Part shown: positions 1-40,063 of the stretch, piece after piece
How positions within the stretch are numbered: the first letter of the stretch is position 1
Layout: each line of letters begins with the position of its first letter
Program-made: the position numbers and the translations under genes
Notes under the pieces: generated by a model
What the model was told of the DNA's origin: nothing
What the model saw: only the letters and a program-made list of their open reading frames with translations
The model's database searches: none
Assembly (NCBI GenBank): GCA_902780235.1
Contig: CACZEL010000014.1
Coordinates: 1-42,701 of the forward strand
DNA: 42,701 bases
DNA from: an uncultured Bacteroidales bacterium
GTDB lineage: Bacteria > Bacteroidota > Bacteroidia > Bacteroidales > Paludibacteraceae
Direction: 5' to 3'

Positions 1-654
1 TGGGCGAACCCGTTGGTGAAGGTGACGATCGTTCCGCGCGGCATGGCTTTGGGCGCAGCATGGTACTTACCCGAAGAGCGTCAGTTGACGAACGAGGAAC
101 ATATCCTGGACGAACTCTGTTCGCTCTTGGGCGGTCGTGCTGCCGAGCAGTTGTTCCTGAACCAGACCTCGACGGGCGCACTGAACGATTTGGAGCGTGC
201 GACCAAACAGTCCTACGCGATGGTAGCCTACTACGGTATGAGCGACAAACTGAAGGATGTCAGCTTCTATGACTCCACGGGTCGTTATGACTACGGATTG
301 GTTAAACCCTACTCAGAAGATACGGCGAAGACCATCGACGATGAGACCCAACGTATCATCGCAGAGCAGATGGCGCGCGCAAAACAAATCCTGACGGACA
401 ATGCCGAAGGGCATCACCAGATCGCGCAACTACTCATCGAGCGCGAGGTGATCACCAGCGAAGATGTGGAACGTATCCTTGGTCCGCGTCCGTGGAAGAG
501 CCGCGGCGATGAACTGTTAGAAGTCAATGCCGCGCTCGCTGAAGCCGAGAAACCGAAGAAAAGAACGAGTCGAAAGAAAAAAGTCGAAAGTCAAAAGAAC
601 GATATCAAACAAGATCAAACAACATCAAACGATAATGAAAAGACTACTGCTTAA
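1..654 (+). CDS. ftsH: ATP-dependent zinc metalloprotease FtsH, C-terminal part (5' end outside window)
   Basis: The reading frame is open from base 1 and the visible 217 residues match the peptidase half of FtsH, the membrane-anchored AAA+ protease that degrades misassembled membrane proteins and regulatory targets. The AAA+ module and the HEXXH zinc helix lie upstream of the window; the first visible residues (ANPLVKVTIVPRG) normally follow HEXXH by about ten residues. The STGALNDLE stretch carries the aspartate that serves as third zinc ligand in the family. After the RPW segment typical of the Bacteroidetes protein comes a Lys-rich tail of about 45 residues whose last third is encoded by short tandem repeats (581-630). 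The stop overlaps the next start by 20 bp. The family call is secure; the tail looks lineage-specific. Confidence 0.95.
   Translation, partial: WANPLVKVTIVPRGMALGAAWYLPEERQLTNEEHILDELCSLLGGRAAEQLFLNQTSTGALNDLERATKQSYAMVAYYGMSDKLKDVSFYDSTGRYDYGLVKPYSEDTAKTIDDETQRIIAEQMARAKQILTDNAEGHHQIAQLLIEREVITSEDVERILGPRPWKSRGDELLEVNAALAEAEKPKKRTSRKKKVESQKNDIKQDQTTSNDNEKTTA
581..630. repeat. Two adjoining short tandem arrays (7-bp and 10-bp units) in the ftsH tail
   Basis: Two heptamers (AAGTCGA, AAGTCAA) at 581-594 are followed at 601-630 by exactly three 10-bp units of the form NNNATCAAAC. They encode the hydrophilic end of FtsH, and the M16 protease start codon lies five bases after the last unit. The heptamer family recurs inside ssb (29992-30019) and the 10-bp family at the asmA/M3 junction (37403-37442). 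Confidence 0.8.
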
Positions 655-3442
655 CATCGTGCTGCTGTGTGCAGCGATGAGCCTTGCGGCGCAAGAAGCG
701 CCGGAGAAACTGCCGATGGATCCTGAGGTTCGTTACGGCAAGTTAGACAACGGACTGACCTATTATATCCGTCATAACGAGCAGCCCAAACAACGTGCGG
801 AGTTCCATATCGCGCAAGCTGTCGGTGCTATCCTCGAAGAGGATCATCAGAACGGTCTGGCGCACTTCCTGGAGCACATGGCGTTCAACGGTACGCAACA
901 TTTCCCGGGTAAGGGCATCATCAACTATTTCGAGTCGGTGGGTGTCAATTTCGGTGGGAACATCAACGCTTACACCTCGATCGACGAGACCGTTTATCGT
1001 CTGAGCGACGTGCCGACCTACCGCGAAGGCATCGTGGACAGTGCGCTGCTCGTGATGCGCGATTGGAGTTGCGGTCTGTTGCTCTTACCGGAAGAGATCG
1101 ATGCCGAGCGTGGTGTCATCCTCGAAGAATGGCGTACGGGTCGTACGGCGCGTCGCCGTATCTGGAAAGAGCTGAACGCAAAGATGTACCCGGGTACACA
1201 GTACGCGAAGCGTGACGTGATCGGTGACACGGCGGTGATCAATAATTTTGAATACCAAGCGCTGCGTGACTACTACCATAAATGGTACGGACCGGATAAC
1301 CAAGCGATCATCGTGGTGGGCGATATTGACGTAGATGCTATCGAAGCGAAGATCAAAGCCTTGTGGGCAGAGGTACCGCGTCGTGCCAACTACGGCGAGC
1401 GACCGATCTATACGGTGAACCATAACGACAAACCCTTAGTCGCTATCGTGACCGATCCGGAGGCCGAAGGCAGCCGTATCACGTTGGAGTACAAGTTCGA
1501 CCAGCTGCCCGAGATGCTGCAAGGTACGGCGCAGGAATACATGTTGAACCTTGTGCGCGAGTTGGCTTGCGACATGCTCAACAACCGCTTCCAGGAGTTG
1601 GCACTCGATCCGAAAGCATCGTTCACGGGCGCAGGATGTCAGTACGGCGAGACGGCAAAGAAGATGGACGCTTTCTTCGGCATCGCTATCCCCAAAGAGG
1701 GTCGCGAGACAGATGCTTATAACGACCTGCTCTTCCAATTGGAGAAGATGCACCGTTACGGTTTCACGAACGCTGAGTTGGATCGCGTGAAGAGCGAGAA
1801 ACTGAACTCTATGGAGAAATACTACAACGAGCGTAACACGCGCAAGAACATTACTTTAGCGCGTGAGTGTATCCGCAATTTCGAGAACGGCGAATCGATG
1901 CCGGGCGCAGAATGGGAGTATGAATTCGTGAAGGCAATGCTGCCGAAAGTGAGTCTGGAGACCGTGAATCAGATCGCAAAAGCGCTGACGCACGCGAACC
2001 CGACCGTTGCTATCTCCGGTCCGGAGAAAGAAGGCGTACATATCCCGTCCGAAGAGGCGATCCTTGCTTCGCTGGCCGGCTTGAGTGAGTTGGCGATCGA
2101 GGCGCCGGAAGAGGAAGTGATCGACAGCGAGTTGGTCAAGAAAGTGCCGCACAAAGGGAAAATCAAATCGATGCGTTACAACGAAGAGATCGAGGCTACC
2201 GAGTGGATGCTGTCCAACGGCATCAAGGTGGTCTTCCACCCGACCGAGTTCAAGGCCGACGAGATCCTGATGCAAGCGTTCTCCAAAGGCGGTTACAGCC
2301 AAGTGAAGACGGAGGACCTGCCATCGGCAGAAGTAGCGACCTACGTGATCGAGATGTCCGGTATCGATCGCTTCAACGCGACCCAGTTGCAGAAAGCGCT
2401 GACCGGCAAGACTGTTTCCGTAGAAGCCGATATAGCAGAGAACACAGAGCGTATCAACGGTTCTTCGTCCGTCAAAGATCTGGAGACGATGCTGCAGTTG
2501 ACGTACCTCTATTTCACGGCTCCGCGTCGTGACGAAGAGGCGTACGAGACCTTGATCGGTTTGCTTAAGAACCAGTTGCTCAACCGCGACAAGAACCCCA
2601 AGAACGCGTTCAACGACTCGGTACAGGTAATGAGTTCGAACCACTCCGACCGTTCGCCGCTTTATAACATGGAGCTGCTGAATAAGGTGACGCTGGATAA
2701 GTCTCTCGAGGTGTATAAAGCACGTTTTGCGAACCCGGCTGACTTCACCTTTGTGTTCGTCGGTAACATCGATCCGAAGGACAAGAAAGTGCAAGAACTG
2801 ATCAGCTTATGGCTCGGCGGTATGAAGACCAAGAAGAACTGCCACGAAGAGGTCATCGACCATCATGTGACCGTTGCTTTGGGTCAGCAGAAGAACTATT
2901 TCACCCGTCCTATGGAGACCACGACGGCTTCGAACCGCATCCAATACACCTCGTACGACATGCCTTACACCATGGCGAACGACCTGAATATGGAGATGAT
3001 CGGTCGCGTCCTGAGTACCCGTTATCTGGAGTCCATCCGTGAGCGCGAAGGCGGTTCGTACGGCGTAGGTACCTACGGTTATATGACCGCACTGCCGAGT
3101 CCGCGTGCCGGCCTGCTGATGCAGTTCGACACCGATCCGAAGAAGCAGACGCGCCTTATGGAGATCATCCACGAAGAGGTGAACACGATCATCGAGAACG
3201 GTCCGCTGGCTTCTGACCTGCAGAAAGAGAAAGAGTCCATGCTCAAGGACTACCAGGAAGATCTGGAGAAGAACACTTATTGGCGTCAGTCCTTGTACAT
3301 GTATTACATGTACGGCGAGAATCATATCCGCGACTACAAAGCAGCCGTTGAGGCTATCACCGCCGAGACCGTACAAGCGACCCTCAAGGAACTCGTCAAG
3401 GCAGGTAATATGTTCGAAGTAGTCATGTTCCCGGAGAACTAG
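635..3442 (+). CDS. M16 family zinc metalloprotease (pitrilysin/PqqL-like), exported
   Basis: This is a 935-residue peptidase of family M16. The start is placed at 635 because it gives a clean signal peptide (MKRLLLNIVLLCAAMSLAAQ); the open frame continues upstream only through ftsH sequence. The inverted zinc motif HFLEH is at residues 77-81, and a glutamate at about 158 sits at the spacing expected for the third zinc ligand. The rest corresponds to the repeated M16 domains; near the C-terminus the EREGGSYGV segment resembles the Arg/Tyr substrate-binding pair of the inactive half. It probably cleaves peptides in the periplasm. The gene overlaps the end of ftsH by 20 bp, so the two are likely translated from one mRNA. 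The substrate is unknown. Confidence 0.93.
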   Translation: MKRLLLNIVLLCAAMSLAAQEAPEKLPMDPEVRYGKLDNGLTYYIRHNEQPKQRAEFHIAQAVGAILEEDHQNGLAHFLEHMAFNGTQHFPGKGIINYFESVGVNFGGNINAYTSIDETVYRLSDVPTYREGIVDSALLVMRDWSCGLLLLPEEIDAERGVILEEWRTGRTARRRIWKELNAKMYPGTQYAKRDVIGDTAVINNFEYQALRDYYHKWYGPDNQAIIVVGDIDVDAIEAKIKALWAEVPRRANYGERPIYTVNHNDKPLVAIVTDPEAEGSRITLEYKFDQLPEMLQGTAQEYMLNLVRELACDMLNNRFQELALDPKASFTGAGCQYGETAKKMDAFFGIAIPKEGRETDAYNDLLFQLEKMHRYGFTNAELDRVKSEKLNSMEKYYNERNTRKNITLARECIRNFENGESMPGAEWEYEFVKAMLPKVSLETVNQIAKALTHANPTVAISGPEKEGVHIPSEEAILASLAGLSELAIEAPEEEVIDSELVKKVPHKGKIKSMRYNEEIEATEWMLSNGIKVVFHPTEFKADEILMQAFSKGGYSQVKTEDLPSAEVATYVIEMSGIDRFNATQLQKALTGKTVSVEADIAENTERINGSSSVKDLETMLQLTYLYFTAPRRDEEAYETLIGLLKNQLLNRDKNPKNAFNDSVQVMSSNHSDRSPLYNMELLNKVTLDKSLEVYKARFANPADFTFVFVGNIDPKDKKVQELISLWLGGMKTKKNCHEEVIDHHVTVALGQQKNYFTRPMETTTASNRIQYTSYDMPYTMANDLNMEMIGRVLSTRYLESIREREGGSYGVGTYGYMTALPSPRAGLLMQFDTDPKKQTRLMEIIHEEVNTIIENGPLASDLQKEKESMLKDYQEDLEKNTYWRQSLYMYYMYGENHIRDYKAAVEAITAETVQATLKELVKAGNMFEVVMFPEN

Positions 3443-3460
3443 TCAAAAGACCGCTTCGCT

Positions 3461-3479
3461 GAAAGAAAAAAGAAAAAAG
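3461..3479. repeat. A-rich repeat before the surE start
   Basis: GAAAGAA, AAAAGAA and AAAAG run directly into the surE ATG. The period is seven, but the low complexity makes membership of the array set uncertain. Confidence 0.35.
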
Positions 3480-4223
3480 ATGAATATAGTAGTTGTTAAC
3501 GACGACGGATGGGGCACGGCGGGAATACGGCTGTTGGCAAAAGAGATGACCAAGTTAGGCAAAGTAACGGTCATCTGCCCCGATGGCGCACGAAGCGGTT
3601 TTGGAGCCGCTATCAGTACCGCTACTCCGATGTATATCCGTCGGGTTGAGGAACACGATCTGAACGGCGCCGAGGTCTATACGACCAACGGTACACCCGC
3701 AGATTGCATCAAGATAGCTCGCGAATACCTCTTCCCGGATCAGACGATCGACCTGGTGGTGTCGGGTATCAACCACGGCTCCAATGCGGCGATCAACGCC
3801 ATGTATTCGGGCACGATCGGTGCCTGTCTCGTGGCGGCAGAGAAAGGTATTCCCGCTATCGGCTGGTCAATAGACAGCCACGCGCCGGACGTCGATCTGC
3901 ACTGGTTGCAACCTTTCTTGGTGGAGGTGACGCAACACCTGTACGAAGAAGGGATCGCTCCTCGGACGGCGTTTAACATCAACGCGCCGGTAGGTGAGAT
4001 AGAAGGTATCCGCTGGACTCGGCAATGCGTTGGACATTGGTCCAAAGAGTTGGTACCTATCGAGGGCGAGCTGCCCGAAGGGGTACTCAAAGGCTGGAAA
4101 TTAGGCGGTGAGTTCATCAACGATGAACCATCGGCTACCGATACGGATATATGGGCGATGCAGCATCAGTTATTGGCCATCACGCCGCTGACATTGGATT
4201 GGACGGACTATGGATCGCTTTGA
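3480..4223 (+). CDS. surE: 5'/3'-nucleotidase SurE
   Basis: SurE is a metal-dependent nucleoside 5'/3'-monophosphate phosphatase linked to stationary-phase survival. The 247-residue length fits the family. The N-terminal VNDDG motif (residues 6-10) supplies the metal-binding aspartates, the ARSG segment (Ser39) is the second metal/phosphate loop, and SGINHGSN at about 95-102 is the conserved Asn loop. The start follows the upstream protease by 37 bp and is the first codon of the conserved N-terminus. Its last 14 bases overlap the next gene. It is cytosolic, and its presence in an operon with envelope proteases is an ordinary Bacteroidales arrangement as far as I recall. Confidence 0.95.
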   Translation: MNIVVVNDDGWGTAGIRLLAKEMTKLGKVTVICPDGARSGFGAAISTATPMYIRRVEEHDLNGAEVYTTNGTPADCIKIAREYLFPDQTIDLVVSGINHGSNAAINAMYSGTIGACLVAAEKGIPAIGWSIDSHAPDVDLHWLQPFLVEVTQHLYEEGIAPRTAFNINAPVGEIEGIRWTRQCVGHWSKELVPIEGELPEGVLKGWKLGGEFINDEPSATDTDIWAMQHQLLAITPLTLDWTDYGSL

Positions 4224-4488: not shown

Positions 4489-5572
4489 TGATCTCGGCAG
4501 CCGTGACCGAGGCGGGTTGAGAACCCAATAGTTGAACGAGGTGCTCGTAGGAAGCGAGCATCTCTTTTTTATAGGCTTCATCGCTCAGCAAGCGAGATAG
4601 TTCGGCGGCGACATTCTCGGTCGTGAACGTGTTGGCTACGCACTCTTCGATGACCTCTTTGCCGGCGATGATATTGACCAAGGTGAAATACGGGATGGAG
4701 AAAAGGAGCGGTTGTGCCCAACGGATAAGCCCGATCAATTTGGAGCACGCCAGATGATACACCGCCACTTGCGGGCAGCCCAATAAAGCGGTTTCCAAAG
4801 TCGCCGTACCGGAGTTCACCACGGCTGCTGAGGCTTGCTGAACGGCACCGTAAGTATCCCGTGTTAGCGTTTCGTTGGCGCGAAGGTACGAAGTGTAGAG
4901 ATTATCTTCTATGTTCGGTGCAGCACACACGACAATCTGATAATCTGAGAACCGCCGTGCGGCTTCTAACATACGCGGCAGGCAGTTCGTGATCTCAGAA
5001 GGACGGCTTCCCGGGAGGATGGCGATCATGGGCTTATCAGCCAATATTGGCTGATGCAAGCGCGCCAGTTCCTCTGCGGTGGGATTTCCCACATAGCGAC
5101 AATTGTAGCCATATTGGGCATAAAAAGCGGGTTCGAAGGGGAAGATACCGAGCACCTCGTCGCACAAGCGGGCTATCTGATGCACGCGCCGGCGTTTCCA
5201 TGCCCACACTTTCGGCGGGATATAGTAGATGATCTTGGTTTGGGGCAGGTGTTGCTTGCAGAAAGCTGCCATGCGCAGGTTGAAGGATGGATAGTCAATC
5301 AGGATCAGTACGTCCGGTTTTTCGTTCAACAACGCCTCTTTGGCGATGCGGAAATTATCCTGCACGTCGCGCCAATGACTGATCACCGCGGCAAAACCCA
5401 TGAATGCCATGTGCCGTATATGGCGGTAAAGCCGACACCCGGAGGCTTCCATTCGGTCGCCTCCGAGACCTGCTATCTGTGCTTCCGGGTCATGCAATTG
5501 GATCTGTTTGATCAGTTCAGCTGCGTGTAAATCTCCGGACGCTTCTCCTGCTATTAAGAAGTATTTGGACAT
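4472..5572 (-). CDS. lpxB: Lipid-A-disaccharide synthase
   Basis: LpxB (GT family 19) condenses UDP-2,3-diacylglucosamine with lipid X to give lipid A disaccharide 1-phosphate at the inner face of the cytoplasmic membrane. The 366-residue protein begins with the diagnostic GEASGD motif (residues 8-13), followed by the family segments GLGGDRM, the DYPSFN region and the nucleotide-binding LPGSRPSEI region. It is the last gene of the rfbA-to-lpxB operon. Its ATG is formed where a TTAGCTA-type array ends (TAGCTAATG on the coding strand), only 20 bp after the glmM stop. The 3' end overlaps the convergent membrane protein gene. Confidence 0.96.
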   Translation of the reverse strand: MSKYFLIAGEASGDLHAAELIKQIQLHDPEAQIAGLGGDRMEASGCRLYRHIRHMAFMGFAAVISHWRDVQDNFRIAKEALLNEKPDVLILIDYPSFNLRMAAFCKQHLPQTKIIYYIPPKVWAWKRRRVHQIARLCDEVLGIFPFEPAFYAQYGYNCRYVGNPTAEELARLHQPILADKPMIAILPGSRPSEITNCLPRMLEAARRFSDYQIVVCAAPNIEDNLYTSYLRANETLTRDTYGAVQQASAAVVNSGTATLETALLGCPQVAVYHLACSKLIGLIRWAQPLLFSIPYFTLVNIIAGKEVIEECVANTFTTENVAAELSRLLSDEAYKKEMLASYEHLVQLLGSQPASVTAAEIITSKR

Positions 5573-5598
5573 TAGCTATTAGCTGTTGGCTATTAGCC
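5572..5598. repeat. Heptamer array filling the glmM-lpxB junction
   Basis: Units TTAGCTA, TTAGCTG, TTGGCTA and partial TTAGCC. On the coding strand the array begins inside the last glmM codon, carries its TAA stop, and ends on the lpxB ATG. It belongs to the AGCTAAC family also seen at 17234, 24833, 32875, 38464 and 39550. Confidence 0.85.
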
Positions 5599-6966
5599 TT
5601 TGACGACATCGATCACTTTCTGAGCAAGTGCGTTTGCTTCGTCCATCGTTGCCGCTTCCGAGTAAACACGGATGATAGGCTCTGTGTTGGACTTACGCAG
5701 ATGTACCCAGCCGTCTGCAAAATCGATCTTTACGCCGTCGCGGTCGTTCACGCGTTCGTTCTTATAAAGTTCTTTCACGCGCGCCAAGATAGCGTCCACA
5801 TCCGTATCCGGCGTAAGGTCAATACGGTTCTTGCTGATGCAGTAGTCAGGCAGCGTACGACGCAGTTCACTCACTTTCATATCGAGGTGCGCCAGATGAC
5901 TCAGGAAGAGCGCGATACCTACTAACGCATCTCGACCGTAATGGCACTCGGGATAGATGACGCCGCCGTTTCCTTCGCCGCCGATGACCGCGTTCACACG
6001 TTTCATCTCGGCTACCACATTCACTTCGCCTACCGCACTCGCGCTGTATTCACCGCCATGTGCGCGGGTTACATCGCTCAGCGCACGGGTCGAGGACATG
6101 TTACTTACCGTATTTCCCGGCGTATGACGCAGGATGTAATCGGCTACACTGACCAGCGTGTATTCTTCGCCGAACATATCGCCGTTCTCGCAGATGATCG
6201 CCAGACGGTCAACGTCCGGATCCACGACAAAGCCCACATCCGCTTTACCGCTCTTGAGCAGGTCGCTGATCTCGGTCAAGTGTTGCGGCAGGGGTTCGGG
6301 GTTATGGGGGAAATGACCGTTCGGCGTGCAGTTCAGTTCGATGATATTCTCTACGCCTACCGCCTTCAGGATCGCCGGAATAGCGAGACCGCCGACGGAG
6401 TTCACGCAGTCGATCGCAACGGTGAAGTTGCGTTTCTTGATCGCTTCTACATCGACTAACTTGAGGTTCAATACCTGCTGCACATGGTAAGGCAGGTAGT
6501 CTTTGTTCGTCATGTGTCCCAAGTTATCCACTTCGGCGAAAGTGAAATCCTCTGCTTCGGCGATCGCCAAGACACCCTTGCCTTCGGCATCGTTGAGGAA
6601 CTCTCCATGCTCGTTGAGCAGTTTGAGCGCATTCCATTGTTTGGGGTTGTGACTTGCCGTAAGGATGATACCTCCTGCGGCTTTCTCACCGGTAACGGCC
6701 AACTCCGTGGTCGGCGTGGTCGCCAAGCCGATATTGACTACATCATAGCCCATTCCCATCAGCGTACCGCACACGATCTGCTCGACCATGTGACCGCTCA
6801 AACGGGCATCACGACCGACAACGATGGTGTTATTATCCGGCAAAGCTGCACGACGCTGCGTCGCATAGGCAGCAGTAAAACGAACGATATCGACAGGGTT
6901 CAGACCCTCTCCTACGCGGCCTCCGATCGTACCGCGGATACCGGAAATAGATTTAACTAAACTCAT
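5593..6966 (-). CDS. glmM: Phosphoglucosamine mutase (phosphohexomutase superfamily)
   Basis: GlmM interconverts glucosamine-6-phosphate and glucosamine-1-phosphate for UDP-GlcNAc synthesis. In the 457 residues the phosphoserine loop TASHNP has Ser105, the metal loop is DPDVDR at about 250, the sugar loop reads GEGNGG, and the C-terminal phosphate loop is SNTEPIIR. GEGNGG differs from the GEMSGH of phosphomannomutases and resembles the archaeal-type GlmM loop, which supports glucosamine over mannose, although substrate choice is not proven by sequence. It lies one base after the DUF4827 lipoprotein gene and upstream of lpxB, so precursor supply for peptidoglycan and lipid A is encoded together. 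Confidence 0.9.
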   Translation of the reverse strand: MSLVKSISGIRGTIGGRVGEGLNPVDIVRFTAAYATQRRAALPDNNTIVVGRDARLSGHMVEQIVCGTLMGMGYDVVNIGLATTPTTELAVTGEKAAGGIILTASHNPKQWNALKLLNEHGEFLNDAEGKGVLAIAEAEDFTFAEVDNLGHMTNKDYLPYHVQQVLNLKLVDVEAIKKRNFTVAIDCVNSVGGLAIPAILKAVGVENIIELNCTPNGHFPHNPEPLPQHLTEISDLLKSGKADVGFVVDPDVDRLAIICENGDMFGEEYTLVSVADYILRHTPGNTVSNMSSTRALSDVTRAHGGEYSASAVGEVNVVAEMKRVNAVIGGEGNGGVIYPECHYGRDALVGIALFLSHLAHLDMKVSELRRTLPDYCISKNRIDLTPDTDVDAILARVKELYKNERVNDRDGVKIDFADGWVHLRKSNTEPIIRVYSEAATMDEANALAQKVIDVVKG

Positions 6967-7538: not shown

Positions 7539-8063
7539 TTATCTCAATTCGATGTCTATTATCACATTTTCATACGGCGGCACATGCTCCGTTCCTCTTA
7601 AACCGAAGGCGGTGTACCAAGGAGCCAACAAGCGTGCCTGCGCCCCGTGATGCAGTTCGCCGATATTGTCTTCTACCGCTTGCGGTAACTCTTTCTTCCC
7701 GATGCGGTACGTAGCCTCGCTGTCCACCAAGAGGTTCGTCGCAAGGTCATACACCCGCATGTGTATTGTCCATTCTGCGTTGGGTTGCGGCGTAGAGGTC
7801 GTCTCGTCCCCCTTGCTGACGATATGCATCCACGTACCGGCTTCGTATAGGGCGAACGTACTGTCCTGCGCCTGCGCCAAGGAGGTCAACTCTCTATCTG
7901 CTGCCTCAGCCAACTGTTGGTTCAGTTGCAGCAAGGCTAAAGCCGTACTATCCACCTGCGGCGCCTGCCCTTTGCGCTGACTTGGTGTCTGCGGCGCCTG
8001 ATGTCCGCAAGCTACCATTACTGCCGACAGCAGAAAAACTACTATGCTCCTTTCACCTTTCAC
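7539..8063 (-). CDS. FKBP-like lipoprotein, GTG start inside a heptamer array
   Basis: This 174-residue lipoprotein has a hydrophobic leader ending in MVAC, a Gln-rich helical linker and a C-terminal half ending in VPPYENVIIDIEL, which is the closing strand of FKBP-type peptidyl-prolyl isomerases. Because Trp, Phe and Tyr active-site positions are not all recognisable, activity is uncertain. No ATG gives a full signal peptide. The only start that does so is the GTG at 8063, inside the CCTTTCA array (coding strand TGAAAGG). A five-codon ORF in the same array (8060-8077) links this start to the stop of the upstream regulator gene. Confidence 0.75.
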   Translation of the reverse strand: MKGERSIVVFLLSAVMVACGHQAPQTPSQRKGQAPQVDSTALALLQLNQQLAEAADRELTSLAQAQDSTFALYEAGTWMHIVSKGDETTSTPQPNAEWTIHMRVYDLATNLLVDSEATYRIGKKELPQAVEDNIGELHHGAQARLLAPWYTAFGLRGTEHVPPYENVIIDIELR

Positions 8064-8076
8064 CTTTCACCTTTCA
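8049..8076. repeat. Four perfect CCTTTCA heptamers at the regulator/lipoprotein junction
   Basis: Four identical units in a row with no mismatch. On the coding strand each unit contains GTG and TGA. The array holds the stop of the hybrid regulator, a mini-ORF and the start of the FKBP-like lipoprotein. A degenerate five-unit relative lies in frame inside the radical SAM gene (14812-14846). Confidence 0.9.
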
Positions 8077-15424: not shown

Positions 15425-15458
15425 AATTATCAATTATCAATTTACAATTATCAATTAG
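15425..15458. repeat. AATTATC heptamer array filling the marC-rpiB junction
   Basis: AATTATC twice, AATTTAC, AATTATC and partial AATTAG. On the coding strand it begins with the marC TAA and ends directly on the rpiB ATG, so the entire intergenic region is array. Confidence 0.9.
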
Positions 15459-17227: not shown

Positions 17228-17233
17228 AAAAAC

Positions 17234-24900: not shown

Positions 24901-24902
24901 TT

Positions 24903-28917: not shown

Positions 28918-28920
28918 TGT

Positions 28921-28957
28921 AACGGTTTAACGATTTAACAGTTTAACGGTTTAACGG
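28921..28957. repeat. AACGGTTT array (8-bp unit) between the FemAB-like and GT4 genes
   Basis: AACGGTTT, AACGATTT, AACAGTTT, AACGGTTT and partial AACGG. The upstream gene's TAA stop (28953-28951) lies in it, and the GT4 ATG follows four bases beyond its end. Unlike most arrays here the unit is eight bases. Confidence 0.88.
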
Positions 28958-29910: not shown

Positions 29911-30371
29911 TAGAAAATATTGCTGAAGAATCCGCCTTGTTCTTCTTGGCTCTCGAGAGCCTGAGCGGCCTCATCGTTAAAAGCCTCTTCGCTTTCGACT
30001 TTCGACTTTTGACTTTCGACTCCGTTTCTATAGATATCCGGACGGTATAAGATCTGGATGTTTTCTGCGATCACCTCGGTCTTACGGCGAATCTGTCCGT
30101 CTTTCTCCCAACTGCGCGTTTTGAGCTTACCTTCCACATAGACCTTCATGCTCTTCCGTAAGTTCTGTTGCGCCCATTCTGCGAGGTTGCGCCAAAGCAC
30201 AATACTGTGCCATTCGGTCACGTCAGGTACTTGGGTACCGTTCTGCATCACATAGCCGCGTTCGGTCGTTGCCAAATTGAAGTTTGCAATTGCTACGCCT
30301 CTGTCCAAGTAACGTACTTCGGGATCTGCTCCTACGTTACCAATTAAAATCACTTTGTTTACGCTTGACAT
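29910..30371 (-). CDS. ssb: Single-stranded DNA-binding protein with non-canonical C-terminus
   Basis: Residues 1-110 form the SSB OB fold (VNKVILIGNVGADPEVRY, the EWHSIVLWRNLAEW strand and the VYVEGKLKTRSW segment). The tail is only about 40 residues. A CTTTCGA array encodes VESQKSKVES in it, and it ends EEQGGFFSNIF. The usual acidic DDLPF-type tip that recruits repair and replication partners is not present, although a terminal Phe remains. Length (153 residues) is in range. It may be a second SSB paralogue; the window shows only this one. Confidence 0.93.
   Translation of the reverse strand: MSSVNKVILIGNVGADPEVRYLDRGVAIANFNLATTERGYVMQNGTQVPDVTEWHSIVLWRNLAEWAQQNLRKSMKVYVEGKLKTRSWEKDGQIRRKTEVIAENIQILYRPDIYRNGVESQKSKVESEEAFNDEAAQALESQEEQGGFFSNIF
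29992..30019. repeat. In-frame CTTTCGA array in the ssb tail
   Basis: CTTTCGA twice, CTTTTGA and CTTTCGA. It encodes about ten residues of the disordered tail, and is the same family as the two units in ftsH (581-594) in opposite orientation. Confidence 0.88.
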
Positions 30372-33600: not shown

Positions 33601-34020
33601 AAAGAAGGGACATTCTTTATTTCCCTCCCTTGTGGGGAGGGCGAGGGTGGGGTTTCCCTTATCGCCGAGGATGTCGAGATCATCACCGAAGACATGCCGG
33701 GTTGGTTGGTAGCGAACAACGGAATCCTGACGATCGCGCTGGATATCGAGTTGACGGACGAGTTGATCGAAGAAGGTATCGCACGCGAACTGATCAACCG
33801 TATCCAGAACCTGCGTAAGTCGAGTGGTCTGGAGATCACCGATCGAATCAACGTGCTCATCGAAGATCGCGCTGAGATCCATAACGCCGTGCTGCATTGC
33901 GGCGACTACATTGCTTCGCAAGTCCTCGCGACGAAATTAGAGCTAACAGCTAATATCGAATTGCCAACAGCTATCGAAATGGACGGCTATACTATCCATA
34001 TTAAAATTGAAAAAGCATGA
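30616..34020 (+). CDS. ileS: Isoleucyl-tRNA synthetase, type 2-like, with GXHH signature
   Basis: IleRS charges tRNA-Ile. The 1134-residue protein is of the long type found in Bacteroidetes and eukaryotic cytosol (IleRS2). The Rossmann signature aligned with HIGH reads GIHH (residues 56-59, in PPSANGMPGIHHV), and the second signature is KMSKR (682-686). The editing domain lies between, with the WTTTPWTLPSNTAL segment. Five short inserts are encoded by tandem repeats or a G-rich hairpin (31252, 31541, 32875, 33623 and 33937). The stop overlaps the next start by 4 bp. Type 2 enzymes are associated with mupirocin resistance. Confidence 0.96.
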   Translation: MKKFNEYKGLNLPALSKEVLELWEKEKLFERSVSEREGHTPFLFFEGPPSANGMPGIHHVMARTIKDTFCRFKTMQGYQVRRKAGWDTHGLPVELGVEKMLGITKEDIGKKISVDEYNAACRREVMKYTKEWTNLTKQMGYWVDLDDPYITYDNKYIETLWYLLKELYKKGYLYKGYTIQPYSPAAGTGLSSHELNQPGCYRDVKDLTCTAKFKLKPSNKLKPSNGAATYIIAWTTTPWTLPSNTALCVGPKIDYVEIALESGEHIILAEARLSAYFENAEVVARYKGADLVGLEYEPLFPWVNPIDKRTANSQVRPVKAYVVIPGDYVTTEDGTGIVHIAPTFGADDKKVGDAAGVPGLYMQTKNYGPRPMVDFTGKYWRVEDLDHDWYKSNVNDALYSKYAGRWVKNAYDPQFTVDGKYDEAAAAKAESLDLHLCLEMKADGRLLKTEKHVHSYPHCWRTDKPVLYYPLDSWFIQSTKARDEMIALNKTINWQPESTGTGRFGQWLNNLNDWNLSRSRYWGTPLPIWRTEDGKEEICIGSIKELFEEIEKSVKAGFMQANPWPNHKVGDYSKANYEPSVIDLHRPYVDSIILVSPSGKPMKRELDLIDVWFDSGAMPYAQNHYPFENADAPRTADFISEGVDQTRGWFFTLHAIHTMIEGTVAYKNVISNGLVLDKNGNKMSKRLGNAVDPFGALDTYGADPVRWYMLTNSSPWENLKFDPEGVDEVRRKFFGTLYNTYGFFALYANVDNWEPIANSQKLKADFSEIDKWILSKLNSLVKEVTEAYEAYEPTKAGRAISDFVQDDLSNWYVRLNRKRFWGGSMDADKQAAYETLYTCLKTVAQLMAPNAPFYADRLYRDLVGETVHLSEWPKADESLIDLKLERQMYLAQQATSMILSLRKRAEKNVRQPLQKAVIPTPDTETAEALLHVADLIKSEVNVKELVIVPAEQSEIRLVKKIKPNFKVLGKKVGAQMKAVAAAINAMSQDDIAQMEKEGTFFISLPCGEGEGGVSLIAEDVEIITEDMPGWLVANNGILTIALDIELTDELIEEGIARELINRIQNLRKSSGLEITDRINVLIEDRAEIHNAVLHCGDYIASQVLATKLELTANIELPTAIEMDGYTIHIKIEKA
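31252..31290. repeat. In-frame TCAAAC-type array in ileS
   Basis: TTCAAAC, TCAAACC and TTCAAAC, then AAAC, TCAAACC and CTCAAAC. The stretch 31254-31271 is duplicated with an 18-bp period, giving the hexapeptide LKPSNK followed by LKPSNG (about residues 214-225). Confidence 0.8.
31541..31567. repeat. TAACAGC units plus palindrome in ileS
   Basis: GAACAGC and TAACAGC are followed by the 13-bp palindrome CAGGTC-A-GACCTG. All is in frame and encodes TANSQVRPV (about residues 310-318) in the editing domain. Confidence 0.65.
32875..32909. repeat. Five-unit AGCTAAC-family array in ileS
   Basis: GAGCCAA, TAGCTAA, CAGCCAA, AAGCTAA and AAGCCGA, in perfect seven-base register. It encodes EPIANSQKLKAD (about residues 754-765). 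At the unit where CTAA would give TAA in frame the sequence is CCAA. Confidence 0.88.
33623..33652. repeat. GC-rich hairpin and G-run element inside ileS
   Basis: CCCTCCC-TTGT-GGGGAGGG forms a hairpin and continues into four G-runs of three or four. It encodes SLPCGEGEGG in the C-terminal region. Its composition is unlike the surrounding gene and unlike the AT-rich arrays. Confidence 0.6.
33937..33971. repeat. Degenerate AGCTAAC-family array near the ileS end
   Basis: TTAGAGC, TAACAGC, TAATATC, GAATTGC and CAACAGC in seven-base register, encoding LELTANIELPTA. It is degenerate, so membership rests on register and on the TAACAGC/CAACAGC units. Confidence 0.55.
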
Positions 34021-34460: not shown

Positions 34461-37404
34461 AATACTGGCCTGGACACTGTTTGGTATCATACTGACGGTT
34501 GTTGCGGCAGTAGGTATCGTGGTGTATGTGGTTTTCACGCCGGAACGTCTGACACCTATTGCTCGCCAAGCAGCGGCGCAGTATGTGGCTTGTCCGCACG
34601 AGATAGGAGAGGTCGATCTGACTTTCTTCTCTACCTTCCCGCGTTTTGGTCTGCGGGCGGACGGTTTGCTGCTGATCAACCCCAAAGCGGGTGCGCAGAA
34701 CGACACGGTGGTAGCAGCAAAGCATCTGGTAGCGACCGTCGATGTGATGGAATTCATCAACAACAAGAACCTCCATGTCCACGAAGCGAAGCTCGAAGAG
34801 GCAAAGGTGCATTTCTTCATTGCCGAAGATGGGTCAACCAACCTGACCGATGTCTTTGTGCTCCCGCCGGACACGACGGAGGACACCACGGCTTTTGTGA
34901 TGCCGTTTGATGCCTTGTTGGTCGATGGGCTGCGTATCCAGGCGAACGCGATCTCTTTCGTCGATGCGAAAGACACGATCGCTGCGGCTTTGGGTGAGAC
35001 GGACTTACGCGTGAGGGTGAATAACTGGGACGATATGTTCGTTTCCTTGGACGCCCACGACGTGTGTGCGAGCCTGAAGAACGAGACCTATGCCGACAGC
35101 CTGCATCTGAGTCTGGACGCCCCCTTGGCGATGAACCTCGACTCCATGCATTTTGCCTTCCGCAGAGCGGAGTTGGCGGTGAACGAGTTCGCATTGGTGT
35201 TCGGCGGAACGGTGGATATACAGGATGACATCAAACTCGATGTCGGTCTTTCCACCAAAGACGCATGGCAGATCGAACCGCTCTTGGCGTTGGTCCCAAA
35301 GAAGTTCACGAAGAGCCTCAAAGACTTGGATGTGGACGGTAAGATCCATTTGGATGCAACCGCCAAGGGCACGTACAGCGAGAACGCCATGCCGCTGATC
35401 GAGGCGCAGGTGCAACTCCAAGATGGTAAGGGCGCGTACAAACCGCTGCCTTATACCTTGCGGGACCTGAACCTGAAAGCCGACGCGGCGCTGAACCTCA
35501 ATAAAGGCGGTAAGTCGAATGTGACGATCCATCACTTGGCAGCCAAGACCAAAGAGAGTGCGCTGAGTGCGCAAGGAAAGGTCAACGACCTGATGGGTAA
35601 CATGCTGCTTGATCTGCAGATGAAGCTCGATGCCAACTTGCCGGACTTCGCCTATTTTATGCCGGAGTCGATGACCGTGGAAGGCAAGGCAAAAGGAACG
35701 GTGAAGGCCAAGATACGCCTGAACGACCTGACGGCGATGAAGCTGGAGAAAGGGCAGATCAGTGCCGATCTCGACTTGAAACATATCCGTTATACGCAAG
35801 ACTCGATGTTGGCGGTACTGCCGCAGAGTCATGTCACGCTCCAACTGCCGAATAACTCTCCAACGCGCAAGTCCGTTAATTGGGCGGCATTGGATCTGAC
35901 ATCCGATAAGTTGGATTTCGTCATGGGCAACAATACCCACGCGATGATCGATGCGCCGGTACTGCATGCCGAGATAGCGAATGTATTGGCGAAAGGACAG
36001 GACTATTTTGCTACCCTCGCCTTCGATGCAATTGACGCCACGTACGACGATATCATAGCCGACTTGAAGGCTTCGGAACTGGAGGCGTTCGTGAGCGGAG
36101 GACAGAAACTGAGTGCCAAACTGAAGACAGCAGCGCTCAACGGACGTATGGGCGAAGAGTTACAGGCCAAAACCGGTAACTTGGCGATCGAAGCGTCGGC
36201 ACGGTATAACAAGGACGGCGAGAACGCGTTGCTCAAGTGGAATCCGCGCCTGAAAGTGAACCTCAAGAACGGTGCGCTGAACATGCCGGAACGCTTACCC
36301 GAGACGGTCTTTATCCCCTCCATCGAGTTCAAGTACTCCAACCGCGAGATGACCATCGACAACAGTCGTATCGAGTTGGGCAATTCCGATCTGAACCTCA
36401 AAGGCAACGTGCGCAAGATCGGCAAATGGTTCCGGCACGAAGACATCCTCGAAGGTGAACTGGACATCGTCTCCGATCACTGCGACGTCAACCAACTCTT
36501 AGCCTGGTTCAGTGCCGACCAAGGTTCAGAAGAGAGTCCTGCGGCAGAGCAGACAAATGAAAAAATGGTAAATGACCAAATGGCAAATGAGTCCGATCCT
36601 TTCATGGTTCCTACCGACGTCGATCTGGCGCTTAACACCCACATGAAAGAGGTGGAGATCTTCAATCAGCATGCCAAGAACCTGCAGGGCGGTATCTTCG
36701 TCAAGAACGGTACGCTGATGCTGGACGAGGTGGGTTTCGTCTGCCGCGCTGCCAAGTTGCAGTTGACGGCGATGTACCGTACGCCGCGAAAGAATCACCT
36801 CTATCTCGGTTTTGACTACCACATGCTCGATATCGATATTGACGAACTGCTGACGATGATCCCGAACCTCGAAGACATGGTACCGATGTTGAAGTCGTTC
36901 AAGGGGTCCGCGCAGTTCCATTTGGCGGCTGAGACCTATCTCAAGAGCAATTACGAGCCCAAGATGAGTACCTTGCGCGGAGCTGCTTCGCTGACCGGCA
37001 AGGACCTCGTCGTCATGGATAGCGAGACTTTCTCGACCATCGCCAAACTGCTGAAATTCAAGAAGCACACGGAGAACAAGATCGATTCGATCAATGCCGA
37101 GATCACGGTCTATAAGAACGATATCGACGTCTATCCGCTTTGCGTACAGATGGATAATTACATGGTCGCGCTGGGTGGTCGGCATAAGACCGATATGTCT
37201 TTTGACTACGACATCAATGTGCTCAGCCCGATCTATTTAGGTGTACATGTGGGCGGCACGATGGACGATCTGAAGATCAAACTGGCCAAGTGTAAGTTCG
37301 CGCAGGACTTCAAGCCGCATTGGTATCAGAAAGCCGATACGCAGTCCCTCGAATTACGCCAGATGATCAAGCAGTCCCTTGAGAAAAACGTTAGAATACA
37401 ATAA
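34444..37404 (+). CDS. AsmA-like (DUF748/AsmA superfamily) membrane-anchored protein
   Basis: A 986-residue protein with one N-terminal membrane helix (about residues 5-32) followed by a very long periplasmic region of repetitive beta-strands rich in Leu/Asp/Lys, the layout of AsmA/TamB-like proteins thought to form lipid-transport grooves between membranes. The N-terminal RLTPIARQAAAQYV after the helix and the LRGAASLTGKDLVVMDSETFSTIAKLL segment near the C-terminus match the family as I know it. A CAAATGA-family array encodes a linker at about residues 704-716. The TAA stop opens the 10-bp array leading into the M3 peptidase gene. Confidence 0.87.
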   Translation: MKRAIKILAWTLFGIILTVVAAVGIVVYVVFTPERLTPIARQAAAQYVACPHEIGEVDLTFFSTFPRFGLRADGLLLINPKAGAQNDTVVAAKHLVATVDVMEFINNKNLHVHEAKLEEAKVHFFIAEDGSTNLTDVFVLPPDTTEDTTAFVMPFDALLVDGLRIQANAISFVDAKDTIAAALGETDLRVRVNNWDDMFVSLDAHDVCASLKNETYADSLHLSLDAPLAMNLDSMHFAFRRAELAVNEFALVFGGTVDIQDDIKLDVGLSTKDAWQIEPLLALVPKKFTKSLKDLDVDGKIHLDATAKGTYSENAMPLIEAQVQLQDGKGAYKPLPYTLRDLNLKADAALNLNKGGKSNVTIHHLAAKTKESALSAQGKVNDLMGNMLLDLQMKLDANLPDFAYFMPESMTVEGKAKGTVKAKIRLNDLTAMKLEKGQISADLDLKHIRYTQDSMLAVLPQSHVTLQLPNNSPTRKSVNWAALDLTSDKLDFVMGNNTHAMIDAPVLHAEIANVLAKGQDYFATLAFDAIDATYDDIIADLKASELEAFVSGGQKLSAKLKTAALNGRMGEELQAKTGNLAIEASARYNKDGENALLKWNPRLKVNLKNGALNMPERLPETVFIPSIEFKYSNREMTIDNSRIELGNSDLNLKGNVRKIGKWFRHEDILEGELDIVSDHCDVNQLLAWFSADQGSEESPAAEQTNEKMVNDQMANESDPFMVPTDVDLALNTHMKEVEIFNQHAKNLQGGIFVKNGTLMLDEVGFVCRAAKLQLTAMYRTPRKNHLYLGFDYHMLDIDIDELLTMIPNLEDMVPMLKSFKGSAQFHLAAETYLKSNYEPKMSTLRGAASLTGKDLVVMDSETFSTIAKLLKFKKHTENKIDSINAEITVYKNDIDVYPLCVQMDNYMVALGGRHKTDMSFDYDINVLSPIYLGVHVGGTMDDLKIKLAKCKFAQDFKPHWYQKADTQSLELRQMIKQSLEKNVRIQ
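36553..36589. repeat. In-frame CAAATG-type array in the AsmA-like gene
   Basis: ACAAATG, AAAAAATG, GTAAATG, ACCAAATG and GCAAATG: unit lengths alternate 7, 8, 7, 8, 7. The alternation keeps TGA and TAA out of the reading frame. It encodes TNEKMVNDQMANE. Confidence 0.82.
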
Positions 37405-37442
37405 AATCAAACAATATCAAACTATGTCAAACAAGATCAAAC
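37403..37442. repeat. 10-bp array across the asmA/M3 junction
   Basis: Four exact 10-bp units: AAAATCAAAC, AATATCAAAC, TATGTCAAAC and AAGATCAAAC. The upstream TAA ends in unit 1 and the M3 peptidase ATG lies inside unit 3, so the array encodes the first residues of the signal peptide. Confidence 0.92.
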
Positions 37443-39550
37443 TTTTTTACATTGTAATTGCTATGAGTTTATTAGCATGTAACAAAACGAACCCCTTGTT
37501 GGAGCAGCCGAACACGCCGTACAGTGTACCGGCTTTTGACCAAGTGAAGATCGAGCATTACCTGCCGGCTTTCGAAGAGGCGATCCGCCAGAACAAAGCT
37601 GAGGTGGAAGCGATCATCAATAACGAAGCTGAACCGACTTTCGAGAACACGATCGTGGCACTCGACCGTACGGGACTGCTGTTGGACCGCGTAGTAGGCG
37701 TGTTCTTCAACGTGCTCGAGGCGGACGGAAACGATGAGATGAACGAGATCGCAGAGCAGGTGTCGCCTATGTTGAGCGAACTGAGCGACGGAATCATCCT
37801 CAACGATGCCCTCTTCCAACGTGTTAAGTTCGTTTATGACCAGCGTGACCAATTGGGGCTGAACCCCGAACAGATGCGTCTGCTGACGGAGACCTACAAG
37901 AATTTTGCGGACAACGGAGCGAACTTGCCCGAGGAGAAGAAAGCCCGTTTGAAGGAGATCAACCAAGAGTTGGGTCTGCTCTCGCTTAAGTTCGGTAACA
38001 ACGTGGTAGCCGAGACCAACAGCGATGAGGTGAAGCGTTTTGTGACGGACGAGGCGCTGTTGAAGGGTCTGCCGGAGAGCGCGAAAGCGGCTGCTGCGGA
38101 AGAGGCTGCGGCTGCCGGTCATCCGGGCGAGTGGCTCTTCACGCCGAAGCGTACGTCCTTCACGCCGGTACTGCAGTACTGCGAGAACCGTGAGCTGCGC
38201 AAGCAACTGCTCATGGACTATACCACGCGTGCAAACCATGACAACGACAACGACAACAAAGCCGTTATCACCCGTGAGATGGAGCTGCGTATCGAGAAAG
38301 CCAAACTGTTCGGCTATGACAACCCCGCGGACTATATCCTTGCGGACTGCATGGCGAAGAACCATCAGACGGTCGATGCTTTCCTGGCATCCGTCTGGGC
38401 ACCTTCCTTGGCTGCTGCCAAACGCGAAGCGGCTGAACTCCAAAAACTGCTTGACGAGGACTTGGCTAACAGCCAACAGCCAACAGCTAACAGCCAATTG
38501 CAGCCCTGGGATTGGTGGTATTATGCCGAGAAACTGCGTAAAGCCAAATATGCGCTGGACGAGGAAGAGATCAAGCCCTATTTCGAGTTGAGCAACGTGC
38601 GCAAAGGAGCGTTTGGTGTAGCGACCAAGTTGTATGGCCTGCAGTTTGAAAAACTGGAGAACATGCCGGTTTATAACAAAGAAGTAGAGGTCTTCAAAGT
38701 GACCGAAGCCGATGGCAGTCTCGTAGGTATCCTCTACACCGACTATTTCCCCCGCGCAGGCAAACGTCCGGGTGCATGGATGAACAATATCCTGCCGCAG
38801 TATATCGATGCCGAAGGGGTCGATCATCGTCCGGTGATCATCAACGTGGGTAACTTCAACAAACCGACCGCAGGCAACCCGTCGCTCCTCTCGATGGACG
38901 ACGTAGAGACCCTCTTCCATGAGTTCGGTCACGCGCTGCACGGCCTTCTTTCGAAGGCGCATTACAAGAGCCTGAGCGGTACCAATACCCCGCGCGATTT
39001 CGTGGAACTGCCGAGTCAGTTCATGGAGAACTATGCGTATGAACCCGAGGTCCTCAAGACCTACGCTTTCCATTATCAGACCGGCGAGGTCATCCCCGAT
39101 GAACTGATCGCGAAGATCAATGCAGCCGGTAAGTTCAACCAAGGCTTTGTGACGACCGAGTTGCTCAGCGCTTCTATTCTCGATATGGATTTCCATGAGT
39201 TGACGACAGCCGAAGGGCTCGATGTCAATGCGTTTGAGAAGCAGAGTCTGGAGAAGATGGGTATGATCGACGAGATCATCGTGCGTTACCGCCCGACCTT
39301 CTACAACCATATCTTCACCACCGGCTACGAGGCAGGTTATTACAGTTATACATGGGCAGCGGTGCTCGATGCAGACGCTTTTGCGGCATTCAAAGAGACT
39401 GGCGATCTGTTCGAACCCGAAACGGCCAAACGTTTCCGTCATTTGTTGGAGCAAGGCGGTACGCGTGACGCGCAGGAACTGTATATCGAGTTCCGCGGCA
39501 AAGAAGCCGATCCGAAGAACCTCCTTCGTCGGAAAGGTTTCATAGAATAA
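37424..39550 (+). CDS. M3 family metallopeptidase (dipeptidyl carboxypeptidase type), lipoprotein
   Basis: A 708-residue thermolysin-like oligopeptidase of family M3 with the zinc motif HEFGH (residues 499-503) followed by ALHGLLS, and typical segments GTNTPRDFVELPSQFMENY and the RPTFYNHIFTTGYEAGYYSY C-terminal region. The start at 37424 gives MSNKIKLFYIVIAMSLLAC, a lipoprotein signal peptide with Cys19, so the enzyme is probably anchored in the envelope, like the Dcp proteins of other Bacteroidales. It likely removes C-terminal dipeptides from periplasmic peptides. A five-unit array encodes ANSQQPTANSQ at about 348-358. Confidence 0.93.
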   Translation: MSNKIKLFYIVIAMSLLACNKTNPLLEQPNTPYSVPAFDQVKIEHYLPAFEEAIRQNKAEVEAIINNEAEPTFENTIVALDRTGLLLDRVVGVFFNVLEADGNDEMNEIAEQVSPMLSELSDGIILNDALFQRVKFVYDQRDQLGLNPEQMRLLTETYKNFADNGANLPEEKKARLKEINQELGLLSLKFGNNVVAETNSDEVKRFVTDEALLKGLPESAKAAAAEEAAAAGHPGEWLFTPKRTSFTPVLQYCENRELRKQLLMDYTTRANHDNDNDNKAVITREMELRIEKAKLFGYDNPADYILADCMAKNHQTVDAFLASVWAPSLAAAKREAAELQKLLDEDLANSQQPTANSQLQPWDWWYYAEKLRKAKYALDEEEIKPYFELSNVRKGAFGVATKLYGLQFEKLENMPVYNKEVEVFKVTEADGSLVGILYTDYFPRAGKRPGAWMNNILPQYIDAEGVDHRPVIINVGNFNKPTAGNPSLLSMDDVETLFHEFGHALHGLLSKAHYKSLSGTNTPRDFVELPSQFMENYAYEPEVLKTYAFHYQTGEVIPDELIAKINAAGKFNQGFVTTELLSASILDMDFHELTTAEGLDVNAFEKQSLEKMGMIDEIIVRYRPTFYNHIFTTGYEAGYYSYTWAAVLDADAFAAFKETGDLFEPETAKRFRHLLEQGGTRDAQELYIEFRGKEADPKNLLRRKGFIE
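38464..38498. repeat. In-frame AGCCAAC array in the M3 peptidase gene
   Basis: GGCTAAC, AGCCAAC twice, AGCTAAC and AGCCAAT. Reading seven-base units in triplets gives a seven-residue peptide period (ANSQQPT, then ANSQ). CTAA appears only where it is out of phase for a stop; where TAA would be in frame the unit is CCAA. Confidence 0.92.
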
Positions 39551-39577
39551 GCTAACAGCCAATAGCTAACAGCTAAT
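39550..39577. repeat. AGCTAAC array after the M3 peptidase stop
   Basis: AGCTAAC, AGCCAAT, AGCTAAC and AGCTAAT begin on the last base of the M3 stop. The ATG at its end (39576) opens a three-codon frame (MFP) whose TGA overlaps the ATG of the next gene at 39584. Confidence 0.9.
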
Positions 39578-39587
39578 GTTTCCATGA
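39576..39587 (+). other. Three-codon mini-ORF bridging to the membrane protein gene
   Basis: ATG TTT CCA TGA, with its ATG at the array end and its TGA overlapping the next start as ATGA. It parallels the mini-ORF at 8060-8077. It may be chance, since only twelve bases are involved. Confidence 0.3.
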
Positions 39588-40063
39588 AACGTCAGACCCA
39601 AACATTATTATACCACCTTTTGCCGATAGTCTTCTGGCTATTGGCAATAGGTGGTAGTGTTTTGTTTTATCGTACGTGGGAAGGATACGTGGTGGCGATC
39701 TTGGCGCTCATCTGCATGTATCTGATCACGCATATCAAACGGCATGCTTCGTCCGTGGAAGAGTGTTTTGAGGTAGGAGTACTGCTGAGCATCGCGGCGT
39801 ATTGGCTGCCGTCTGTCTTGTTCCTCTTCCTGCCTGTCTGGGTCTATCTGATCTACAAAAACCTCTTCTCTTTCCGCTCGTTCTTAGCCTCCCTGATAGG
39901 CTGTGCGATGATAGCTATCTGGATCGTGGTAGGCAACTACCTTTCACTTTTCACTTTTCACTTTTCACTTTCCGAGAACTTGTTCGCGTGGATTCCCGCC
40001 GGTTCTTTCTTGTTGGCATGGTTAGGCACTACCATTGTACAACAAACCCTCCGTGAACGTTAA
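39584..40063 (+). CDS. Polytopic membrane protein, function unknown
   Basis: A 159-residue protein with about five membrane helices (near residues 9-27, 33-47, 63-89, 100-118 and 131-150) and a short basic C-terminus. I recognise no family motif. The loop between the last two helices (SLFTFHFSLSENLF) is encoded by a TTTTCAC array. It is the last gene of the ileS operon. Its final 35 bp overlap the 3' end of the convergent TonB-dependent receptor gene. The ATG at 39584 is preferred; the one at 39576 reads only MFP. Confidence 0.7.
   Translation: MKRQTQTLLYHLLPIVFWLLAIGGSVLFYRTWEGYVVAILALICMYLITHIKRHASSVEECFEVGVLLSIAAYWLPSVLFLFLPVWVYLIYKNLFSFRSFLASLIGCAMIAIWIVVGNYLSLFTFHFSLSENLFAWIPAGSFLLAWLGTTIVQQTLRER
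39941..39975. repeat. In-frame TTTTCAC array in the membrane protein gene
   Basis: CTTTCAC, TTTTCAC three times and TTTCCGA. It is oriented so that no stop occurs; the reverse orientation would read TGA. The encoded peptide is Phe/Ser-rich between two helices. Confidence 0.88.

Follow-up and report, generated by a model that had tools for sequence, protein, structure and literature searches.

Tandem repeats with a unit of seven nucleotides have been described in bacteria under several names (STRR, LSSR, TAACTGA, GGGAATC), in general as spacer arrays that belong to genome-specific families (PMC4679880; PMC4692102). The sections concerned report 186 GGGAATC arrays in Xanthomonas campestris ATCC 33913 and some close inverted pairs, 70 cases being given for X. 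campestris (PMC4692102); a 7-nt polymerase effect was, according to PMC4679880, proposed by Mrazek and others. Neither S23 nor four-helix proteins turned up in term searches of these two papers, and no link of S23p genes to dispersed heptamers was found in the open-licence literature. The second related system is the IVS of the 23S rRNA which, in the part of PMC4990558 that deals with it, has complementary, stem-forming ends, an ORF of the PF05635 family (S23p) in the loop and two or three GACAGAT heptads before the ORF, is scattered in its distribution, and occupies conserved insertion places with different inserts. The same account cites the idea that the IVS ORF served mobility, and describes S23p as a protein without known function (PMC4990558). 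Among dispersed palindromes, REP elements and their RAYT are described as short sequences often located just 3' of a stop codon, with intragenic copies reported at the same site in related species (PMC3733652; PMC12306157). For the P6b element of the Nostoc tRNA-Leu intron, a hairpin is described that forms by pairing of degenerate heptads whose copy number varies, a case confined to one intron site and not dispersed (PMC3488679).

The stretch of DNA analysed here (the window, 42,701 nucleotides, contig C14) comes from a genome of 2.28 Mb in 58 contigs, 78.6% complete, whose nearest named relatives are rumen and gut MAGs of the Bacteroidales/Paludibacteraceae. It is rich in short tandem arrays which, with a probability of roughly 0.6, we regard as the ends, ORF-less miniatures and single-arm remnants of selfish S23p elements related to the IVS and located outside the rRNA. 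A complete element would consist of a tandem-heptad arm, a gene for an S23p/IVP four-helix bundle and a complementary heptad arm; without its ORF it would be an imperfect palindrome of 60–75 bp, and without one arm a micro-array surviving in intergenic sequence or, if in frame, within a protein loop. Slippage would then rewrite the heptads, keeping the unit length and altering the unit sequence in concert. Copies would come to lie at compact operon junctions and in loops that tolerate them, where close species would often carry different families. Compared with the described heptameric repeats, the present ones form many families per genome, are swapped at orthologous sites, have in-frame copies in loops and are associated with S23p genes; compared with the IVS, they lie between or inside protein genes, have arms built from tandem heptads of many families, and include dispersed copies that lack the ORF.

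The dispersed micro-arrays described in the initial annotation are real. By an exact lag-7 criterion (runs of at least 9 matched bases, with 100 dinucleotide shuffles as control) the window holds 12 runs vs a shuffle mean of 0.18 and maximum of 2, a density which the shuffled sequences do not reproduce; Tandem Repeats Finder at score 30 returns 57 overlapping rows. At lag 9 there are 4 runs vs 0.09 in shuffles, and at lags 2–5 and 10–13 no exact run was found in the window. The annotated unit length of mostly 7 bp agrees with the lag-7 excess, but several arrays have periods of 8–11. In a further 397 kb of the same genome 101 lag-7 runs were counted vs 1.7 shuffled, in 42 unit classes. The density per 100 kb is 25.4 in this genome, 8.7 in 24 congeners (26 runs vs 2 shuffled in 298 kb), with a range from 1.5 (G011) to 14.4 (G006), and 2.0 in 16 other families of the order (4 runs vs 3 shuffled in 197 kb). 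In 1.62 Mb around the IleRS gene of 80 relatives, lag 7 gives 190 runs vs 8, lag 11 gives 49 vs 1 and lag 9 gives 47 vs 4. One congener, G011 (L119, L178–L186), favours period 11, with 17 period-11 arrays vs 3 of period 7. By a simple custom gene caller, 53 of the 113 arrays of the present genome are intergenic, 19 lie across a gene edge and 41 are inside genes; coding sequence makes up 88% of it, and 72 of the 113 arrays fall wholly or partly in the non-coding 12%. Tandem heptads are thus over-represented genome-wide and mainly in spacers, as in heptameric STRR/LSSR, and the annotated likeness to the cyanobacterial repeats is supported.

The same units recur at unlinked loci. With arrays thinned to more than 1 kb apart and a null of units drawn from random local 7-mers (2000 draws), a unit class is shared in 108 of 2701 array pairs of the present genome vs a null mean of 3.6 and maximum of 13, that is, 30 times the random 7-mer expectation. 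Among six genomes, units match in 125/3102 pairs within a genome (4.0%) vs 39/5413 pairs between genomes (0.72%; permutation p 0.0003), most of the signal coming from the present genome; dominant units are not alike between congeners, and sharing within the 23-kb IleRS loci alone is weak (10/169 pairs vs 4.4 shuffled, with a shuffled maximum of 15). This recurrence supports the shared generating process that had been proposed for the arrays, and it speaks, together with the genome-specificity of the units, against their origin by local slippage only, in which a polymerase bias to 7-base duplications under weak selection, with concerted evolution, would make the arrays and the S23p genes would be incidental. 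This alternative, for which the 7-nt polymerase effect attributed to Mrazek and others offers a precedent (PMC4679880), is in our opinion unlikely, and further evidence on both its sides is given below.

The AGCTAAC family is present at all seven places where it had been annotated, with an additional site at 33941..33973 (+), where degenerate GCTAAC words lie close to the point at which the IleRS gene ends. A full palindrome fills the spacer between the stop of a TonB-like gene and the start of recG (24830..24902, +; fold z –6.0), where G045, a sister genome, is without the element, and a second lies 3' of rpsO (17230..17297, –; fold z –3.8), with other sequence in G045. A single arm is found at the glmM stop and lpxB start (5569..5600, –), and further arms between the stop of a Dcp-like peptidase gene and the next start (39546..39581, +) and, in frame, within the IleRS gene (32876..32911, +) and the Dcp-like gene (38462..38499, +); a short GCTAAC word within the IleRS gene (31531..31561, +) falls at a loop site that was compared over 81 IleRS rows. 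The most frequent GCTAAC classes correspond to the two arms, left and right, of a single oriented imperfect palindrome of 60–75 bp, in which TTAGCYG units are followed by a short loop and GCYAATA units, the arms being asymmetric. A comparison of flanks was set aside, as neighbouring arrays confound it. Fixed unit length with drifting unit sequence, as annotated, is exceeded in this family, whose imperfect palindrome is dispersed and has arms that differ from each other, and the statement that no terminal repeats are linked does not hold, since many AGCTAAC arrays are paired inverted arms.

In the present genome 37 palindrome copies were read, each covering some 46 or more of the 70 model positions (one copy is just 47 bp), all with these asymmetric arms and the majority without an ORF. 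The context is known for 36, of which 32 lie between co-directional genes (24 in gene direction, 8 against). Of the other four, two are intragenic and two separate convergent genes. Where the copy is sense-oriented, the upstream stop is inside the element or at most 3 nt from it in 19/26 cases, and the next start is at most 7 nt away in 15/24; these stop and start motifs, carried by the palindrome ends, confound target-site duplication. Folding is strong (mean z –3.35; z < –2 in 34/37), and RNase III might cut the resulting hairpins in the mRNA. The hairpin holds for the full palindromes and was rejected as a property of all arrays, because non-coding arrays overall fold no better than array-free spacers (mean z –1.42 in 65 array windows vs –1.15 in 60 array-free ones, p 0.31). 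A strong hairpin (fold z –6.5) is also formed by an inverted pair of 9-bp arrays, TGCACTTTC and AATAGTGCA, at 21136–21197 of the window. A palindrome of this kind, oriented and present at 37 places, cannot arise by independent slippage.

The abundance of the palindrome is lineage-specific and patchy, as indicated by the uneven match counts across relatives: a model search gives at least 127 matches in the present genome, both palindrome strands counted, with a best score of 73.5 bits, whereas in G001–G024, among the matches listed, scores are at most 36 bits and the longest match covers 55 of 70 positions (G019). The sister G045 has 5 partial matches and no more, full-length places number four in G050 and three in G061, and in G059 a single weak match, over 58 positions, is accompanied by many half matches. 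With terminal inverted repeats and no coding sequence (2/37 being inside genes), the palindromes have the make-up of MITEs. They differ from REP in being built of heptads, in the tag GTAG, contained in 1/37, and in the Y1 transposase, for which a search of the present genome (78.6% complete) gave 0 matches. The annotated lack of a linked transposase thus holds for the Y1 (IS200-type) family, the one searched, in a genome about 79% complete, and mobilisation by RAYT was rejected, Y1 being absent here and having some match in 22/61 genomes of the genus. A scan of the window with Rfam returned tRNA only. The GCTAAC elements share complementary ends with the IVS, and 36/37 palindromes are in a protein-gene context (custom caller) and not in 23S rRNA; because of this location they are considered a variant of the IVS.

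In the present genome and in G061 the GCTAAC arms also enclose a gene for a four-helix bundle of the S23p/IVP family (PF05635/TIGR02436), a family with solved structures (2gsc, 2rld). Xanthomonas campestris ATCC 33913 has an S23p gene, XCC0516, to which 2gsc belongs. The insert of G061 encodes an ORF of 120 residues that matches PF05635 at 2.6e-36 and TIGR02436 at 3.8e-35; its scores for Avd are weak and do not reach the respective cut-offs. L331, one of six PF05635 genes of the present genome, lies between the same GCTAAC arms, with an upstream stop and a downstream start as for the palindromes. As in the long forms of the IVS, an S23p/IVP ORF occupies the loop in L317 and L331, which distinguishes these two from the ORF-less copies; in both, the stop codon of the ORF is formed by the array. 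PF05635 matches, 49 in total, were found in 11/12 further congeners. The flanks of 28 S23p genes were read, namely 8 loci (six of the present genome, G061 and G041) and 20 of the 49, picked before their flanks had been seen. Arrays are present on both sides of 12/28 S23p genes vs 33/839 ordinary genes (Fisher 1.4e-9), and of 10/26 when L317 and L331, noticed first through their arms, are excluded. The median inverted-arm score is 34.5 for S23p genes vs 16 for ordinary genes, and inverted arms exceed the 99th percentile of the control in 14/28, or 17/28 including direct arms. Strict arrays are missing on one or both sides in 16/28. Exceptions are genes with mainly direct arms (L330, L332, L343), with a one-sided array (L218) or with weak arms (L341, L344, L345, L349).

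The association is also found in a second phylum. A search of plasmids gave 28 records with S23p relatives, most of them cyanobacterial, of which 12, all cyanobacterial, were sampled. Arrays lie on both sides of the S23p gene in 7/12 and on at least one side in 10/12, and inverted arms go beyond shuffles in 9/12; L356 has long direct arrays, and the arms of L359 and L361 are not inverted. Among 70 ordinary genes from stretches of two Nostoc plasmids, used as control, none is both-sided and 6 go beyond shuffles at 0.05. S23p genes being flanked by arrays far more than ordinary genes in two phyla is a further argument against slippage alone. It weighs likewise against the possibility that S23p genes are passengers, inserted or kept in hairpin loops of arrays spread by another agent, since the association persists in the cyanobacterial plasmids, where control genes are without such arms. 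That most palindromes are without an ORF, that G050 and G061 have few full palindromes yet 7 and 5 S23p matches, respectively, and that S23p is described without a known mobility enzyme activity (PMC4990558, in the part concerned) would be in keeping with passengers; but the array makes the stop codons of the ORFs in L317 and L331, and the search for a Y1 transposase provided no alternative agent in the present genome. We consider passenger genes improbable, somewhat more so than slippage. A separate observation on the plasmids is that 3/12 of their S23p genes are inside CRISPR operons (L356, L358 and L367; cas6/cas4 twice and cmr2/cmr3 once), which heptad cassettes may interrupt.

Under the preferred reading, that of S23p elements and their derivatives, we infer a descent of the ORF-less copies from cassettes, a function of the S23p protein in mobility, and a route by which the elements are copied. 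A bolder and tentative extension, which we hold to be rather doubtful, would regard heptamer repeats across bacteria (the cyanobacterial STRRs, Xanthomonas GGGAATC, TAACTGA and the words of Bacteroidota) as arms and miniatures of S23p elements, the four-helix-bundle protein, which a weak score relates to Avd, as a nucleic-acid factor for copying heptad stem-loops to new junctions, and the 23S rRNA IVS as a special case with an rRNA target. Heptamer repeats have been described without a source and S23p/IVS without a known function. Now that the two have been found associated, against controls, in two phyla, both can be tested: an S23p gene would predict heptad arms, perhaps together with dispersed copies, and a genome rich in heptamers would predict S23p cassettes. 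If true, this would also account for operon spacers that change quickly and for the in-frame insertions in loops of essential proteins, IleRS among them.

The arms of the six cassettes of the present genome were aligned, at a loose threshold, with the window alone. L331 aligns with the GCTAAC places. L332 aligns with the ATCAAAC places, a 10-bp family annotated at 601 and 37403 and confirmed at both, that is, with a 10-bp ATCAAACAAN array at a gene end before an M16-like peptidase gene (591..634, +; a 27-bp piece is absent in G045) and with an array across the Dcp-like start (37393..37446, +), as well as with an in-frame array of CAAAC words in the IleRS gene (31253..31290, +). The arms of L333 resemble a TTGTACA array within a gene (21753..21784, +) and in-frame TTGTAC words in recG (23773..23827, –), the two annotated places of this family (21757 and 23772), and more weakly an AATTATC array at a gene junction (15420..15456, +). 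L330 is similar to the CAAATGA/CCAATGA array of the rpsO leader (16911..16951, +), and L329 to AAAGACCGCTTCGCT and AAAGAAA words at a gene junction (3441..3480, +; aligned at 3445–3474) and partially to AGTCGAAAG and AAAGAAA words within a gene end (568..597, +; aligned at 568–583). The match of L334 at 20725 is no better than a reversed-window control, and L332 also matches the reversed window, down to 2e-5. At a strict genome-wide threshold, the six cassettes match 4/12 lag-7 arrays of the window and 35/113 of the genome, GCTAAC dominating, and six random foreign cassettes match 12.8 of the 113 on average and 39 at most, so that the comparison of own with foreign cassettes is no more than suggestive. 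Counted by alignment, 11/12 cassettes have a higher density of arm words in the genome that carries them than in the six others, ordinary flanks showing a bias in the same direction (2.2 in their own genome vs 0.78 per 100 kb); by an 11-mer count cassette arms are no different from ordinary genes, and the alignment count was used instead.

Many arrays match no cassette, which is a point in favour of slippage. The annotated CCTTTCA family was found again at both its places, as (CCTTTCA)4 at a gene junction (8049..8076, –) and as a degenerate array (14812..14849, –). For these two, for an 8-bp TAACGGTT array at the start of a glycosyltransferase gene (28920..28957, –; 24 bp absent in G045), for in-frame AAATG-type words in a large gene (36553..36590, +) and for (TTTCACT)4 within a gene (39942..39971, +) no cassette was found, in the case of CCTTTCA (8049) and TTTCACT (39942) at the strict threshold. 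AAATG, annotated as one family, is a loose mixture of periods 7, 8, 14 and 15. The CTTTCGA array in frame in an SSB-like gene (29988..30021, –), confirmed at its annotated place (29992), is absent in G045 and matches the arms of the cassette L337 of a congener.

At orthologous sites the arrays turn over, and congeners, as had been asked of relatives in the initial annotation, do carry periodic arrays at the same sites, usually of another family. Between the present genome and G045 (84% identity over 46.2 kb; 13 arrays alignable) one array of 13 is conserved (21756, the sole one of the window) and one has changed units at the same place (8049, with mainly CTTTCAA units in G045); the remaining 11 are absent, shorter or replaced, and two junctions in G045 carry CCTAGG words instead. 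Of the 18 indels with a net length of at least 14 bp over 46.6 kb, 10 look like repeat words on visual inspection, with gains in either genome. In recG the loop word is common to the present genome and G070, while the sister G045 has the plain loop GDAVH, as do 8/18 congeners read (18 of 30 loci; 12 were dropped, one strand alone having been read); the pattern is one of loss, exchange or double gain, and G045 having the plain loop led to the rejection of the 27-bp recG indel as a deletion inside an insert. At the first operon junction, readable in 8/16 congeners (the other 8 being without readable anchors), lag-7 arrays of other units are present in G045, G049 and G042, 8-bp words in G047, G070 and G006, a short spacer without a clear array in G052, and G050 is empty. 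At the second, where 12/20 loci are without readable anchors and 7 genomes were read, other arrays (by eye) occupy 4/7, 2/7 are empty, and G061 has a cassette at the junction where the present genome has an ORF-less palindrome. In the comparison used for the rpsO sites, no more than a few of the loci lying on the other strand were used. The unit length kept despite the change of units at 8049, and also at the IleRS site 33600, is what slippage would produce. That the arrays are selected regulatory elements, serving at starts as binding sites or to enhance translation, a role suggested for TAACTGA repeats, is very improbable in spite of their concentration in non-coding sequence and of the next start lying close to most sense-oriented palindromes, since 41/113 are inside genes, close relatives have another family or none at the same junction, and arrays within spacers are no closer to starts than at random (median gap 35 vs 27 for random placement), a result on which start-codon targeting was rejected.

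Inside genes, the arrays are concentrated in loops. In 81 rows of IleRS, five loop sites are filled with arrays in 94/405 cells vs 38/2592 elsewhere in the gene; site 33600 has six unit classes and site 32875 has 23, with periods of 7–11, an 11-bp unit class being found at the latter in 11/81 rows. The insert sites fall between strands or helices of a predicted fold that is poor (mean pLDDT 58). In a loop of Dcp, which reads PGEK in many rows, repeat words of at least four families are found instead in 5/61 rows. In-frame insertion in genes is a property of the rickettsial palindromic elements (RPE). The latter are described as palindromes that end in CGTC and can be located inside genes (PMC3733652, in the part on RPE), the CGTC tag being one contained in 0/37 of the present palindromes, and the coding inserts here are mostly single arms. 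A C-rich/G-rich word of the CCCTCCCTTGTGGGGAGGG type is in frame at 33622–33658 of the window and is also present in L029, L047, L055, L058 and L090; words of this type were found at different loops, in several genes and species.

Two further features were observed. A stretch of about 60 bp at ~1986–2055 of the locus L276 was found repeatedly in the 16 congeners searched, and the 12-mers TGCATATATGCA and AAAAAAGCAGTA are over-represented; the stretch with these 12-mers may be a conserved promoter region. At 26439–28917 of the window an asparagine-synthase-like gene adjoins a glycosyltransferase gene, and these neighbours are perhaps part of a polysaccharide cluster.
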